Assembly (NCBI RefSeq): GCF_000452705.1
Contig: NZ_CP007014.1
Coordinates: forward strand, 4,866,501 to 4,930,500
Length of the DNA stretch: 64,000 bases
Direction: 5' to 3'
From: Pseudomonas syringae CC1557
GTDB taxonomy: Bacteria > Pseudomonadota > Gammaproteobacteria > Pseudomonadales > Pseudomonadaceae
Positions 3,933-29,742 of this stretch are shown here, one piece after another. Under the pieces are notes generated by a model. The model did not search any database. It saw only the letters and a list, made by a program, of their open reading frames with translations, and was not told the DNA's origin. The position numbers and the translations under genes are program-made. Positions within the stretch are counted from its first letter, which is position 1; every line of letters begins with the position of its first letter.

Positions 3933-3950
3933 ACCCGTTTCCAGCGAGCC

Positions 3951-4196
3951 GTGGTAAAGCCTGAGCTCACGTTTCTTCAGAAAATCCTGCCACCCCCCTG
4001 ATCAAGCCGCTCTGGCCTGTTACGCTTCGCTCCGGCCCGCCTCAAATAGGTATCGATGGAGCTGCTCTTGACATCAGGTTCTGTACGAAAAGTCGGCGAG
4101 CGCTCGAACCTTGGACTTTATCAATATACCAAGGCATATTTCCTCTTCTCGTATTGACAACCGAAACTTCGACTGACTCGTCATGCTCAAGTTGCC
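3951..4196 (-). pseudogene. decayed duplicate of the 3' end of the neighbouring LuxR gene
   Basis: This stretch aligns over its whole length with 5115-5368, which covers the end of the intact LuxR gene and a few bases past its stop. Shared blocks include GCTTCGCTCC, ATCGATGGAGCTGCTCTTGA, GTCGGCGAGCGCTCGAA, ACCAAGGCATATTTC and TCATGCTCAAGTTGC. The stop codon is kept. The copy has many substitutions, a small deletion near 4028, an insertion of about 13 nt near 4090, and a loss of about 17 nt near 4180, so the frame is destroyed. It encodes only remains of the HTH domain. The N-terminal sensor part is missing and unrelated sequence follows. It fills most of the gap between the exporter and the next gene. 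Confidence 0.85.
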
Positions 4197-4774: not shown

Positions 4775-5114
4775 TTCACTTTTCCTCGCCTGGTTTTATG
4801 GATGACGTTGCGTCAACGTGCTGAGACTACTATCTACATTGGCAATGTTACAATTTTCATGCCTGCGCTGCATACAGTTTATGAACTAGTCAGCCTGCGG
4901 CACTGGTCAACCTCGTTGGCCCACACCTCCCCAGCGGTGACGGTCGTAACGGCCTCAACAATCGCCCCCCCCTTCAGCAAGTACACTCCAGCGCACTTCG
5001 TATATTCAGCACATTTAGAGGCTTTTCAGTGATACCTATGGCCAGCTTGCGCTGAGCATCTGCCAAGATTGACTTCGACCTCAAGCAGCGAGAAACGCTA
5101 CGTGACAACTCGAC
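4775..5114. other. intergenic stretch without recognisable content
   Basis: No supported gene, RNA or repeat was found here. The short open frame at 4802-5032 has no good ribosome-binding site and no recognisable protein. The promoter for the TTG-started gene at 4774 should lie at the left end. At the right end begins the homology to the decayed LuxR copy. Confidence 0.5.
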
Positions 5115-5130
5115 GTGGCAGAGCGTGAGC

Positions 5131-5952
5131 TCAAGTTTCTTCAGGAAGTCCGGCCATCCACCTGATCAAGCCATTCCGGCCTGTTGCGCCAAGCTTCGCT
5201 CCAGCGCGCTTCAAATAGGTCTCGATGGAGCTGCTCTTGACATTAAGTTTGTCGGCGAGCGCTCGAATCGAAGACCCCATCAGTAGACCAAGGCATATTT
5301 CTTTTTCACGCATTGACAACCGTAACTTTGATTGACTCAACTTCTCGTTGAAATCATGCTCAAGTTGCAGGGCGCTCTGCCTAAAGGCTTCGTTTTCGGC
5401 ATTTGTCATGCAAGAAATGAGCATTGCACCAGCGTGCTGCTCCAGCATGGGGAGCAACGCCTCTGAAAAATTCTTCAAAAATGATAATTCGGAAAGTGAG
5501 AAATCACGCTGGTGATGCTCGCGGTACAGAGAAATAACCCAAAGCTTTTTCGACTTGTGCGCTACCAGATTGCAGTTATAAAAACCCGGCGCACCCGAGC
5601 TGGCTTTTCCAGCGCTATACGTTGGTTTCAAGTGAACCAGCAAAGTTTGTTCACCTTCGATTATTCGATTGAGCAGAATCTCATGCTGCGAATAAGTCGG
5701 GCTCATCAACTTATGTTCGGCACTCTCTTGCCCCAAGGGCTGGATACTGACAATACGTCGTTCATTCTCGTTGAGACTCCATTCACTCAAATCGAGGAAA
5801 TCTATAGCAACGGTGGCCGCAATAACCTTGTGCATATTAGAAGCGAATCCTGCATCGCCCACGCTTTCAATTAAATTGCCGAGTTCCATAAAATAGCTCG
5901 ACTGATTTCCCGTCATTTCAGAATTCTTTTCCATTAGAAGATATTCGCCCAT
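5131..5952 (-). CDS. LuxR-type HTH transcriptional regulator
   Basis: A 273-aa regulator with a C-terminal LuxR/GerE helix-turn-helix (LSMREKEICLGLLMGSSIRALADKLNVKSSSIETYLKRAG, about residues 208-265, in which the usual E-V-L-x-L and T-V-x-x-H positions are degenerate). The N-terminal 190 residues are not recognised and do not show the acyl-homoserine-lactone-binding residues of LuxR/LasR, so an unknown ligand or partner is more likely. The ATG at 5952 is preferred over 5991 because GGAGG lies 9 nt before it; 5934 is a further in-frame candidate. Its last 240 bases are the source, or sister, of the decayed copy at 3951-4196. It is a solitary gene in the accessory region and its target is unknown. 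Confidence 0.85.
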   Translation of the reverse strand: MGEYLLMEKNSEMTGNQSSYFMELGNLIESVGDAGFASNMHKVIAATVAIDFLDLSEWSLNENERRIVSIQPLGQESAEHKLMSPTYSQHEILLNRIIEGEQTLLVHLKPTYSAGKASSGAPGFYNCNLVAHKSKKLWVISLYREHHQRDFSLSELSFLKNFSEALLPMLEQHAGAMLISCMTNAENEAFRQSALQLEHDFNEKLSQSKLRLSMREKEICLGLLMGSSIRALADKLNVKSSSIETYLKRAGAKLGATGRNGLIRWMAGLPEET

Positions 5953-6292
5953 CGGAGTCTGCCTCCAGCGAAGCCAAAAGCAACCTTTCATAGAAGGCCG
6001 CCGCGTGGCTTAAATGCCTAGTAGTGCACGCACCTCAGGTTGTAGGATGATTTAGCCGACGTATTTAATCCTCGGCAGGAAATGATCGCCATTACCCGCG
6101 CCGGGGTTTGTGACATCGCCAAAAAGCAGTCGGTTCGTCCGAACAGTAAGTACGAGCATGGTTACCACGTTGCGTTGTCGGTGTGCATATCCGGCTGGGG
6201 TAAGGTCCGGCTATGCGGCTATACAAATAGCCTCATCGACGTCGCCAGTATCGACTGTGCCCTCTACAGGAGCGAGCACTGCACCCTTGTCG

Positions 6293-6487: not shown

Positions 6488-7414
6488 TCAGCGAGCAGGA
6501 CGATTTAGCGAGGAGAACTGGGCGTGAACCAAACCACGTAACCAGATATGCGCTGCGTCTTTGTGCACTCGCTCGTGCCAGTATTGTCGGACGGGTATAC
6601 AGGGAGGGCTCATCGGTAACGTTACGAGACGCACGTTGGCATAGCGGGCAAACACGTGGGCAATGTCGCTGGGTACTGTTGCAAGCAGGTCAGAGTTTTC
6701 AAGGACGGGTAATAGGCTCATGAAATGTGCCAGCTCGAGCCGCACGCTTATCCGTAGACAGTTTTCAACCATGAACTGTTCTATGAAATGATGGCGTCCA
6801 TCCACCCTCACGACAACGTGATCAGCATCAAGGTACGCTTCCAGTGATAGATGTGTACCGCCCGCCAGCAGCGGATGCTCGGCACGCATGACACAGATAT
6901 GCGCGCTGTCGAATAGCTTCTGTTGAAAGTACTGTGCTCGCTCAAGGTCTGGAAAATATCCGATAGCCAGTTCTGCATCCCCCGAATCCAATATCTCCAA
7001 AGTGGCAGCGCGAGCACACGACATTACCCGTAGCGTCGCGGAGGGAGCCACAAGCGTCAGAGCCCTCAGCAGCGAAGGGACAATAACTACCTCACCTATG
7101 TCGGGTACCAGAATACTGAAAGCTCGCGTGCATTGGGCGGGGTCGAATAACGCAGGCTGCAACAACTCCTCACGTACGGTCTGCAATACTTTTTCAATGG
7201 CTGGTGCTAGCGCAATCGCACGTGGGCTAGGTTTCATTTCAGAGCCGCTACGCACAAACAAGGGATCGTCGAATTGCACACGCAATCTGGCCAGTGCCGC
7301 GCTCATGGCTGGCTGGCTGAGGCCAATGCGATCGGCCGCCCGACTGACGCTACGGCACTCGAGCAGGGCTCCAAAAACGGTGATCAAGTTCATGTCCAGC
7401 GAACGTAAATCCAT
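6488..7414 (-). CDS. LysR-family transcriptional regulator
   Basis: A 308-aa LysR-type regulator. The N-terminal winged HTH spans about residues 8-65 (DMNLITVFGALLECRSVSRAADRIGLSQPAMSAALARLR, then FDDPLFVRSG). The rest is the periplasmic-binding-protein-like effector domain (about 92-300). The DMNLL-type start and the DPLFVR motif resemble the NodD/PcpR/NahR branch, which often controls aromatic or xenobiotic catabolism, but the ligand is unknown here. The ATG at 7414 is preceded by GAGAAAGCTC, a weak ribosome-binding site. No intact divergent target gene remains: upstream lies only the topB fragment, and downstream lie the palindrome and the possible GlcG/HbpS relic. It is probably an orphan left after island decay. 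Confidence 0.93.
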   Translation of the reverse strand: MDLRSLDMNLITVFGALLECRSVSRAADRIGLSQPAMSAALARLRVQFDDPLFVRSGSEMKPSPRAIALAPAIEKVLQTVREELLQPALFDPAQCTRAFSILVPDIGEVVIVPSLLRALTLVAPSATLRVMSCARAATLEILDSGDAELAIGYFPDLERAQYFQQKLFDSAHICVMRAEHPLLAGGTHLSLEAYLDADHVVVRVDGRHHFIEQFMVENCLRISVRLELAHFMSLLPVLENSDLLATVPSDIAHVFARYANVRLVTLPMSPPCIPVRQYWHERVHKDAAHIWLRGLVHAQFSSLNRPAR

Positions 7415-7524
7415 GAGCTTTCTCGCGAAGAATTATCAATCCAATGGTTACCGCAGCGGTAAGCATACCTATGCGCATCATGCAGTTTATTAATGTTTCG
7501 CGTTCCGGACCACGTGCCAGGAAA

Positions 7525-7707
7525 AACCACATGGACACACTCCCAATCCTGCCTAAGCGATGGAGAGTGCTCTTCAAACCGAAAACAGCCAGTCAGTTAA
7601 AGATCGTCAAGCAACTACTCCAGCAGGCCACTGAACTCGTTATTGCGACGGACGCTGACCGCGAGAGGGAGATGATCGCCCGCGAGCTGATCGAGTATTG
7701 TGGGTAA
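7525..7707 (+). pseudogene. topB: fragment of DNA topoisomerase III (topB)
   Basis: About 59 residues ending at a stop at 7707 match the TOPRIM part of topoisomerase III: MDTLPILPKRW, KPKTASQLKIVKQLL, then ELVIATDADREREMIARELIEYCG. The first part corresponds to the LADLPIVPEKW region of E. coli TopB. The TOPRIM metal-binding motif DxDREGE reads DADRERE here, so a conserved glycine is lost. The N-terminus and all of the catalytic-tyrosine part are missing. Topoisomerase III genes are typical cargo of PAPI-1/clc/PPHGI-1-type integrative elements, and this fragment lies 270 nt from a tRNA cluster used by such elements. It is read as an island remnant. Confidence 0.75.
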
Positions 7708-7755
7708 TGACTGCGAAATATGGACCGATACACGCGCCGCACAGCATTTTTTGCC

Positions 7756-7798
7756 AAAAAAAACGCCCCGTACACAAGCATTCGCTCGGTACGAGGCG
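7756..7798 (-). terminator. rho-independent terminator
   Basis: On the minus strand CGCCTCGTAC pairs with GTACGGGGCG (one G-T wobble) over a 15-nt loop and is followed by eight Ts. It lies 13 nt beyond a minus-strand stop codon at 7812 and would end whatever transcript once ran through there. Confidence 0.75.
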
Positions 7799-7811
7799 CT
7801 CCAGTTTTACA

Positions 7812-7877
7812 TCACGGTTTGCTGTTGCCGTATTTCGCGTCAGGCGGCAGCTTAAAGCGGTCCCACCTGAAAATGCA
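7812..7877 (-). pseudogene. possible C-terminal tail of a lost minus-strand gene
   Basis: The minus-strand frame reads CIFRWDRFKLPPDAKYGNSKP and then TGA, and a strong terminator follows at once. The sequence looks like a natural protein end, but the frame upstream runs into the tRNA terminator, so the body of the gene is missing. I cannot name the family. This is inferred from layout and codon use only. Confidence 0.25.
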
Positions 7878-7883
7878 TCCAAC

Positions 7884-7911
7884 AAAAAAGGCGTCCCGAA
7901 GGACGCCTTTT
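7884..7911 (-). terminator. terminator of the distal tRNA-Pro gene
   Basis: AGGCGTCC pairs with GGACGCCT around a CGAA/TTCG tetraloop. On the minus strand it is followed by six Ts; four Ts follow on the plus strand, so it may work both ways. It lies 64 nt after the tRNA-Pro 3' end. Confidence 0.85.
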
Positions 7912-7975
7912 CTGTTGGACTCAAAACGACTGTTCTTGAGTCCTGATCTTCAACCCTGATACAGCTGGGCGAAAA

Positions 7976-8052
7976 TGGTCGGGGTAAGGGGATTCGAACT
8001 CCTGACATCCTGCTCCCAAAGCAGGCGCGCTACCGGACTGCGCTATACCCCG
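7976..8052 (-). tRNA. tRNA-Pro (UGG), distal copy
   Basis: A 77-nt tRNA on the minus strand with the 3' ACCA encoded. The acceptor stem is CGGGGTA/TACCCCG, the anticodon arm is CTGCTTTGGGAGCAG with anticodon TGG, and the T arm contains GTTCGAATC. It is identical over its full length to the tRNA-Pro at 8231-8307. It lies after the terminator that follows tRNA-Lys, unlike the three promoter-proximal tRNAs, so it looks like a later duplication, perhaps left by an integration event. Confidence 0.97.
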
Positions 8053-8060
8053 ATGATGCT

Positions 8061-8086
8061 AAAAAACACCTCCGAGGAGGCGTTTT
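8061..8086 (-). terminator. terminator after tRNA-Lys
   Basis: On the minus strand ACGCCTCC pairs with GGAGGTGT (one wobble) and runs into six Ts. It separates the Asn-Pro-Lys tRNA transcript from the distal tRNA-Pro. Confidence 0.75.
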
Positions 8087-8149
8087 CTATTTGGGTGACG
8101 CTTGTGGCGTCACTCCCTAAGATCCAGCCAGATACAAACCAGCTAAAAA

Positions 8150-8225
8150 TGGTGGGTCGTGTGGGATTCGAACCTACGACCAATTGGTTAAAAGCCAACT
8201 GCTCTACCAACTGAGCTAACGACCC
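8150..8225 (-). tRNA. tRNA-Lys (UUU)
   Basis: A 76-nt tRNA with acceptor stem GGGTCGT/ACGACCC, anticodon arm TTGGCTTTTAACCAA (anticodon TTT), T loop GTTCGAATC and encoded 3' ACCA. This tRNA-Lys next to clpB is the attachment site of large islands in other pseudomonads (PAPI-1 in P. aeruginosa; PPHGI-1 uses a tRNA-Lys in P. syringae pv. phaseolicola). No second copy of its 3' end is seen in this window. Confidence 0.97.
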
Positions 8226-8230
8226 AAATA

Positions 8231-8307
8231 TGGTCGGGGTAAGGGGATTCGAACTCCTGACATCCTGCTCCCAAAGCAGGCGCGCTACCGGACTGCGCTA
8301 TACCCCG
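8231..8307 (-). tRNA. tRNA-Pro (UGG), proximal copy
   Basis: A 77-nt tRNA with anticodon TGG and encoded ACCA, identical to the copy at 7976-8052. It is only 5 nt upstream of tRNA-Lys on the minus strand, so the two are cut from one transcript with tRNA-Asn. Confidence 0.97.
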
Positions 8308-8336
8308 ACTGAAACCGCATTGAATCTTGCGAAATC

Positions 8337-8412
<76 letters not shown>

Positions 8413-8541
8413 ACTATCAATTTCAGATTCAACTTTACAACCTGTTGCCTTGAAACCAGCGTGCTGTTAACTCGTTGATTTCAATCTCATCGACCTTTGC
8501 GCTTCGTTTGTATCGTTGCGTTCACGTCTCTGAGGCGCGCT

Positions 8542-8569
8542 ATTCTACAATTTTAAAAACACCTGTCAA
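8542..8569 (-). promoter_or_regulatory. sigma-70 promoter of the tRNA transcript
   Basis: On the minus strand a perfect -35 TTGACA (8564-8569) is separated by 16 nt from -10 TAGAAT (8542-8547). The next bases, AGCGCGCC, form a GC-rich discriminator typical of stable-RNA promoters under stringent control. Confidence 0.85.
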
Positions 8570-8654
8570 CCCTATAAATTGCTTTTTAAGACAATGATTT
8601 GCGATTTTTTTTCAGATAGCCTCTCGGGCCCGATTCTACTGCTGACCGCGCCTC

Positions 8655-8680
8655 AAAAAAAGGCCCTCTGTCCGAGGGCC
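8655..8680 (-). terminator. clpB terminator
   Basis: GGCCCTC pairs with GAGGGCC over a 5-nt loop, followed by seven Ts on the minus strand, 27 nt after the clpB stop codon. Confidence 0.92.
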
Positions 8681-8707
8681 CTTCTATAAGAGCGTTGACA
8701 AGCGCTG

Positions 8708-11272
<2,565 letters not shown>

Positions 11273-29269: not shown

Positions 29270-29742
29270 CAGCAGCTTCCACCGAGGACAATCCGCCCAG
29301 TCAGGCAAATACTCATGTTTTTAGTCGTGCTGCCTCGGGTGTAGGTCATGGTTACCGCCGAAGCCGGGGCTATAAGCCCGCCCAGATTATTGAAGTCAAA
29401 TGCCGCTACGTTAGGGTTCGATACCAGCGTCCCCCCGCCGCTCATAGCGGCAATGGTACGAAGCGCAGTAGGCGGCGTCTTGGTGTCGGAAGCCAGATAC
29501 ACCTGCAATTCGCCGGTCCAGGCGGTCCCGCTGGTCGGTGCAATTCGCACTGTCACTCCCCTGTTTATCGCCTCAAGTCGCGCATAGTTGAGCGCTCGCT
29601 GCAAATCGCTGAGTTCTGTGTCGGCTTTGTTGCTCTGGATGGAGCTGGTGAAATTCGGGATCGCGATAGCCGCCAGGATGCCCACCAGGGACACAGTGAC
29701 TAACAATTCGATGAGGCTGAATCCCTTGGCTATATGACGCAT
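29269..29742 (-). CDS. fimT: type IV pilin-like protein FimT, first gene of the minor pilin operon
   Basis: A 157-aa GspH/FimT-type pseudopilin. Leader [31 protein letters not shown], then the conserved LQRALNYARLEAINRGVTVRIAP block of FimT/FimU. In this family such subunits prime pilus assembly, and some FimT proteins bind DNA during natural transformation. Two cysteines lie in the last 15 residues. The ATG at 29742 has AGGAG 7 nt upstream. It heads the minus-strand operon. A second FimT/FimU-like gene is divergently oriented 131 nt away. Confidence 0.93.
   Translation of the reverse strand: MRHIAKGFSLIELLVTVSLVGILAAIAIPNFTSSIQSNKADTELSDLQRALNYARLEAINRGVTVRIAPTSGTAWTGELQVYLASDTKTPPTALRTIAAMSGGGTLVSNPNVAAFDFNNLGGLIAPASAVTMTYTRGSTTKNMSICLTGRIVLGGSC

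Follow-up and report, generated by a model that had tools for sequence, protein, structure and literature searches.

ICEs of Pseudomonas syringae have been described repeatedly beside clpB, and three published systems lie closest to the locus analysed here. For PsICEs, PMC10945833 reports 52-bp repeats in tRNA-Lys; one of their sites, att-1, is the tRNA-Lys gene by clpB, and ICEPph1302A/PPHGI-1 is among the elements placed there. Baltrus et al. (PMC8895235) describe tandem ICEs in PmaES4326 and a decayed island in PtoDC3000, located between clpB and hopR, with the integrase at the tRNA end and a ParA-type ATPase at the far end beside another tRNA-Pro. PFGI-1 of Pseudomonas fluorescens Pf-5 (PMC2647930) occupies a tRNA-Lys 3′ end between 49-bp repeats, and its class is named in the relaxase model TIGR03760, which is matched by the ICE of one of the genomes compared below (G356).

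The window, a 64,000-nucleotide stretch of P. syringae CC1557 (NZ_CP007014.1, positions 4,866,501 to 4,930,500), shares its site with the att-1 PsICEs and differs from PFGI-1, which sits at the other tRNA-Lys, by exsB (PMC2647930). Set against the att-1 elements of PMC10945833, the window holds only about 0.4 kb of recognised ICE sequence and no att repeat, and the repeats in its relatives measure 54 bp rather than 52. The resemblance to the PmaES4326 and PtoDC3000 regions (PMC8895235) extends to clpB, the tRNA order Asn-Pro-Lys-Pro, topB and the decay of an ICE; those strains retain entire ICEs or a region spanning about 70 kb, whereas the window is almost devoid of ICE genes. Among the features typical of PsICEs and the PFGI-1 class, the window contains the att-1 position by clpB and a fragment of the topB of this ICE lineage, and contains neither a tyrosine integrase nor a MobH/TraI_2 relaxase nor tRNA-Lys repeats of about 52 bp. 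The site is a published P. syringae ICE hotspot (PMC8895235, PMC10945833), and the scar is an ordinary one, if well documented.

We consider it highly probable that an ICE of the P. syringae type (PFGI-1/PAPI-1/PPHGI-1 superfamily) left its scar here after decaying by deletions at the clpB-side tRNA array, with the tRNA-Pro pair itself being old. The ICE would have occupied the Asn-Pro-Lys-Pro array, its integrase end facing the tRNAs; deletions would then have taken the integrase, the relaxase, the secretion genes and most of topB, an order of events that we infer, and would have left short ICE pieces in their original arrangement. The stretch 7525..8307 is the core of the locus, and ICE-like sequence extends leftwards to about position 4900. 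The features, in window coordinates, are as follows.

4900..4986, plus strand: weaker third ICE-like remnant, collinear (88 bp; 76% to G115, 80–81% to two G401 contigs)
5131..5991, minus strand: LuxR-type gene between ICE remnants
6488..7414, minus strand: LysR-type gene between ICE remnants
7532..7706, plus strand: topB fragment of 175 bp, beginning near codon 62 and confined to the TOPRIM part (153/175 nt identical to G115 topB)
7705..7706, no strand: deletion junction between topB and the integrase end, 2-bp overlap (alignment coordinates and letters)
7705..7853, no strand: ICE integrase-side end, found between integrase stop and tRNA in relatives' ICEs (87% to G115)
7760..7802, minus strand: hairpin (folding, z −5.48)
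7878..7919, minus strand: terminator-like hairpin T, downstream of the outer tRNA-Pro (folding, z −9.60)
7976..8052, minus strand: outer tRNA-Pro (TGG) (ARAGORN)
8060..8089, minus strand: terminator-like hairpin between tRNA-Lys and the outer tRNA-Pro (folding, z −5.55)
8150..8225, minus strand: tRNA-Lys (TTT), ICE attachment site in relatives (ARAGORN)
8231..8307, minus strand: inner tRNA-Pro (TGG) (ARAGORN)
8337..8412, minus strand: tRNA-Asn (GTT) (ARAGORN)

ARAGORN places the four tRNA genes on the minus strand in the order Asn-Pro-Lys-Pro, directly adjoining clpB (8708–11272), and the outer tRNA-Pro is identical to the inner one, so that both the order and the identical pair given in the preliminary description are borne out. 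The terminators it had placed around the outer tRNA-Pro also fold as three hairpins, although a simple consensus terminator scan lists none of them, probably because the paired A/T tracts use up the T run. Hairpin T marks a boundary in several alignments with relatives, which end at 7878–7884. GC content is 48–55% to the left of the tRNAs as against 58–60% in clpB. A plasmid search with positions 7420–8700 gave 756 records; each of the 20 listed matches falls in the tRNA part and covers less than 80% of the query. One, from a Pseudomonas veronii plasmid (NZ_CP142042.1:17191-17597), matches the tRNA part at 83% over 43% of the query.

The topB piece is, by its similarity to intact genes, a genuine ICE remnant. 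The open reading frame at 7444–7707 gives a partial Toprim match (PF01751, E 7e-7, profile positions 41–80 of 96) in which the motif DADREGE is changed to DADRERE, in keeping with the earlier report of a topoisomerase III fragment with a broken TOPRIM motif. When positions 7415–7974 were searched against 398 genomes of the genus, with two places scored per genome, the fragment proved 87–89% identical to topB of G115, G356 and G401 and 77% identical to that of G077, G347 and G405; the matched gene is unbroken in G115 and G356 (673 and 677 aa). Such genes are common, 285 of the 398 genomes giving some match at E 1e-6, mostly topB at 70–78%, and the window's own genome holds two further matches at 71%. 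The proposed origin in a topB-carrying ICE is supported by the 87% identity to topB of the complete G115 ICE and by the integrase-end piece that adjoins the fragment. Elsewhere in this genome, an ICE-like region of a different lineage (G000:C1:2603616-2656000) has a relaxase, topB and ParA that are 57%, 62% and 51% identical, respectively, to those of the ICEs studied, and a topoisomerase gene lies on a 53.6-kb second contig, perhaps a plasmid (G000:C2:21980-23335).

The topB fragment runs into the integrase-side end with a 2-bp overlap, and the DNA missing at this junction amounts to about 66.8 kb measured on G115 and about 51.9 kb measured on G356. Positions 7722–7853 are 86% identical to the stretch just beyond the integrase stop in G356, and 7727–8060 are 90% identical to P. 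congelans. The reading of an orphan protein tail here is not supported: 7705–7853 matches the interval between integrase stop and tRNA in relatives' ICEs. A further 24 positions, 7854–7877, extend this end and are common to P. congelans, G347 and the left copy in G115 while being absent from the intact G115 ICE end. The window's integrase end abuts T and the group-typical Lys-Pro spacer, whereas the ends in G115 and G356 abut a different stretch and spacer, so that either the lost ICE ended in another way or a rearrangement has altered its end. Among the matches listed for the 398 genus genomes (two places scored in each), none is an intact ICE whose end is of the window type. The integrase itself was not found in the window's genome, whose three integrase matches reach 27% at best, and the single relaxase match (57%) lies 2.3 Mb away.

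The third, weaker remnant corresponds to positions 29575–29662 of the G115 locus, which precede topB at 80624, and the three ICE pieces of the window accordingly stand in ICE order. The adjacent 4986–5107 has its match in the levansucrase-side region of G401, which breaks this order and indicates that the left part has been rearranged. Between the remnants, the LysR-type gene has a best listed match of only 41% among the 398 genus genomes (five places scored in each); in a protein collection it has relatives at 89% and at 77% (P. gingeri), most of the next ones lying near 55%, with two of those named coming from Polaromonas. In the LuxR-type region, about 230 bp are repeated at 78% identity (3950–4179 and 5114–5338), across a 161-aa open reading frame. 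Farther left, a large NRPS-like coding region lies between about 30.3 and 0.5 kb from the window start; it is read in two overlapping frames (6537 and 3407 codons) and ends just before the levansucrase gene at 51–1346, and condensation and AMP-binding domains are recognised in its first 1000 residues. G334 lacks the region between the NRPS gene start and T, which spans 38.1 kb in the window's genome; we rejected it as an empty site, since the NRPS gene start is kept before T and the arrangement looks like a deletion.

Complete elements in relatives show what such an ICE contains. The G115 ICE, 136.8 kb long, carries topB, a ParA-like gene, dnaB, a relaxase, conjugation genes and an integrase; on either side stands a 54-bp direct repeat taken from the tRNA-Lys 3′ end, which corresponds to window positions 8145–8198. 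It also carries its own tRNA-Pro between integrase and tRNA-Lys, with a spacer unlike that at the other end. The G356 element has a MobH/TraI_2 relaxase, PFGI-1-class conjugation proteins and a tyrosine recombinase (PF00589), with NF041494, TIGR03760, TIGR03744, TIGR03749, TIGR03752 and TIGR03755 all over cut-off. We considered and rejected the reading of G356 as an ICE in tRNA-Pro, its Lys-Pro spacer being of the type carried by the G115 ICE. Remnants are also found: P. congelans, whose ClpB is 99.4% identical to that of the window, retains DNA pieces of the relaxase and the integrase and the integrase end directly before T and the four-tRNA array, and G115 (left copy) and G347 have shorter integrase-end pieces before T. 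One apparent boundary in G347 falls in unreadable sequence and was set aside. In P. floridensis and P. tremae, the ParA-side ICE end lies in tRNA-Lys, with 54 and 50 identical bases. At L089 (G347), between two copies of T, two 205-aa open reading frames follow one of 131 aa and by eye resemble a type III effector and chaperone.

Which tRNA was used, left undecided between Lys and Pro at the outset, can be narrowed by these relatives. The expected direct repeat of a tRNA 3′ end is lacking: in the window's genome neither 3′ end has a second copy outside complete tRNA genes, and a search with tRNA-Lys recovers nothing beyond the gene itself and a second complete tRNA-Lys gene, with no direct repeat of about 52 bp. 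From the comparison with relatives, tRNA-Lys nevertheless appears the likelier target, because the G115 ICE is flanked by the 54-bp tRNA-Lys repeat and carries its own tRNA-Pro, in agreement with the 52-bp tRNA-Lys repeats of PsICEs in PMC10945833. For this lineage we infer the target rather than read it directly, given that the genome yielded no second att copy and that the preserved end abuts T and the group spacer. An ICE of the same kind may instead have targeted the 3′ end of the outer tRNA-Pro, the integrase end, T and tRNA-Pro together forming its natural end; this is a possible but distinctly less probable reading. It would account for the integrase end lying beside T in the window, P. 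congelans, G115 (left copy) and G347, and for the displaced T and last 12 nt of tRNA-Pro that break at the same base in G115 and G347. It also agrees with PMC8895235, which reports the array Asn-Pro-Lys-Pro, places the two successive ES4326 ICEs at tRNA-Pro, and suggests that the first recreated a tRNA-Pro that the second used as its integration point. Against it, G115 is the sole case in which both ends of the ICE are seen, and there the repeat falls in tRNA-Lys; in P. floridensis and P. tremae, too, the ParA-side end lies in tRNA-Lys. In G115, moreover, the 12 nt are followed, across a short overlap, by sequence from inside the ICE, which has the look of a deletion. The shared break itself, recorded at L082 (G115) and L089 (G347), stands beside different sequences in the two genomes.

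The preferred reading, an ICE decayed at an old array, separates the scar from the tRNA-Pro pair. In a survey of 57 genomes, 36 of them of the same genus and including the window's own, ARAGORN finds the four-gene array in 24 of the 36: the window and 23 further loci (L012–L034), one genome each. The other 12 comprise ten with only Asn-Pro-Lys in the stretch examined, one (G007) with only Asn and Pro there, and one (G035) whose outer Pro sits on another contig. In a midpoint-rooted ClpB tree of 32 rows, from which eight loci without clpB in the flank are left out (L036–L040, L151, L154 and L157), 24 of the 25 rows in the window's group are four-gene, the exception being G035; three of the remaining seven are four-gene and four are three-gene. 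The four-gene label requires at least three changes on this tree, a figure as low as which arose in 5 of 500 shuffles; ancestry is here a reading of the clustering, and G356 is scored as four-gene though its outer Pro is read as ICE-borne. A pattern search found seven named records, which we take to belong to the P. syringae group. ARAGORN detects four tRNAs in P. triticifolii, P. viridiflava and P. alliivorans, and in P. congelans once the flank is included; the P. amygdali stretch yields no tRNA.

The two tRNA-Pro genes are therefore an old state of the array and not by themselves the trace of an island. That they arose here as an integration duplicate, as the preliminary description had it, is very improbable: a tRNA-Pro copy is indeed found in ICEs of this family (the G115 ICE, and those of PMC8895235), but the wide occurrence of the array across the genus and the ClpB tree, without an island, largely contradicts such an origin for this lineage. 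A topB piece brought in by chance through an unrelated rearrangement, or an assembly artefact, would fit the mere 175 bp of topB that is left, and is the least credible explanation of all in view of the adjoining second ICE piece, the collinear third one, the related remnants in P. congelans and an 871-bp contig encoding a 78-aa protein with both fragment ends and the DADRERE change (3 differences), the last two of which mean that the scar is not private to one assembly.

For the outer tRNA-Pro, then, the position in the array is old, and an ICE may have replaced the copy that occupies it. We tentatively suggest, as an idea that is more doubtful than not, that an ICE entering here brings with it the entire downstream tRNA-Pro, its own spacer and the tRNA-Lys end, and that the 3′ part of the tRNA operon is thereby exchanged at every integration; part of this idea, an ICE recreating tRNA-Pro, is already present in PMC8895235.

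With this locus a known ICE hotspot gains an example that is almost erased. It shows how an old tRNA duplication, recognisable by an array that is widespread without an island, can be separated from ICE cargo, recognisable because the element brings a last tRNA of its own. The locus also suggests a way to test which is the true attachment site, tRNA-Lys or tRNA-Pro, on which PMC10945833 and PMC8895235 read differently. If the swap occurs, an ancient ICE would have left behind the copy of the outer tRNA-Pro and T now seen in the window, P. congelans, G115 and G347, and the array would owe its completeness to the very elements that invade it.
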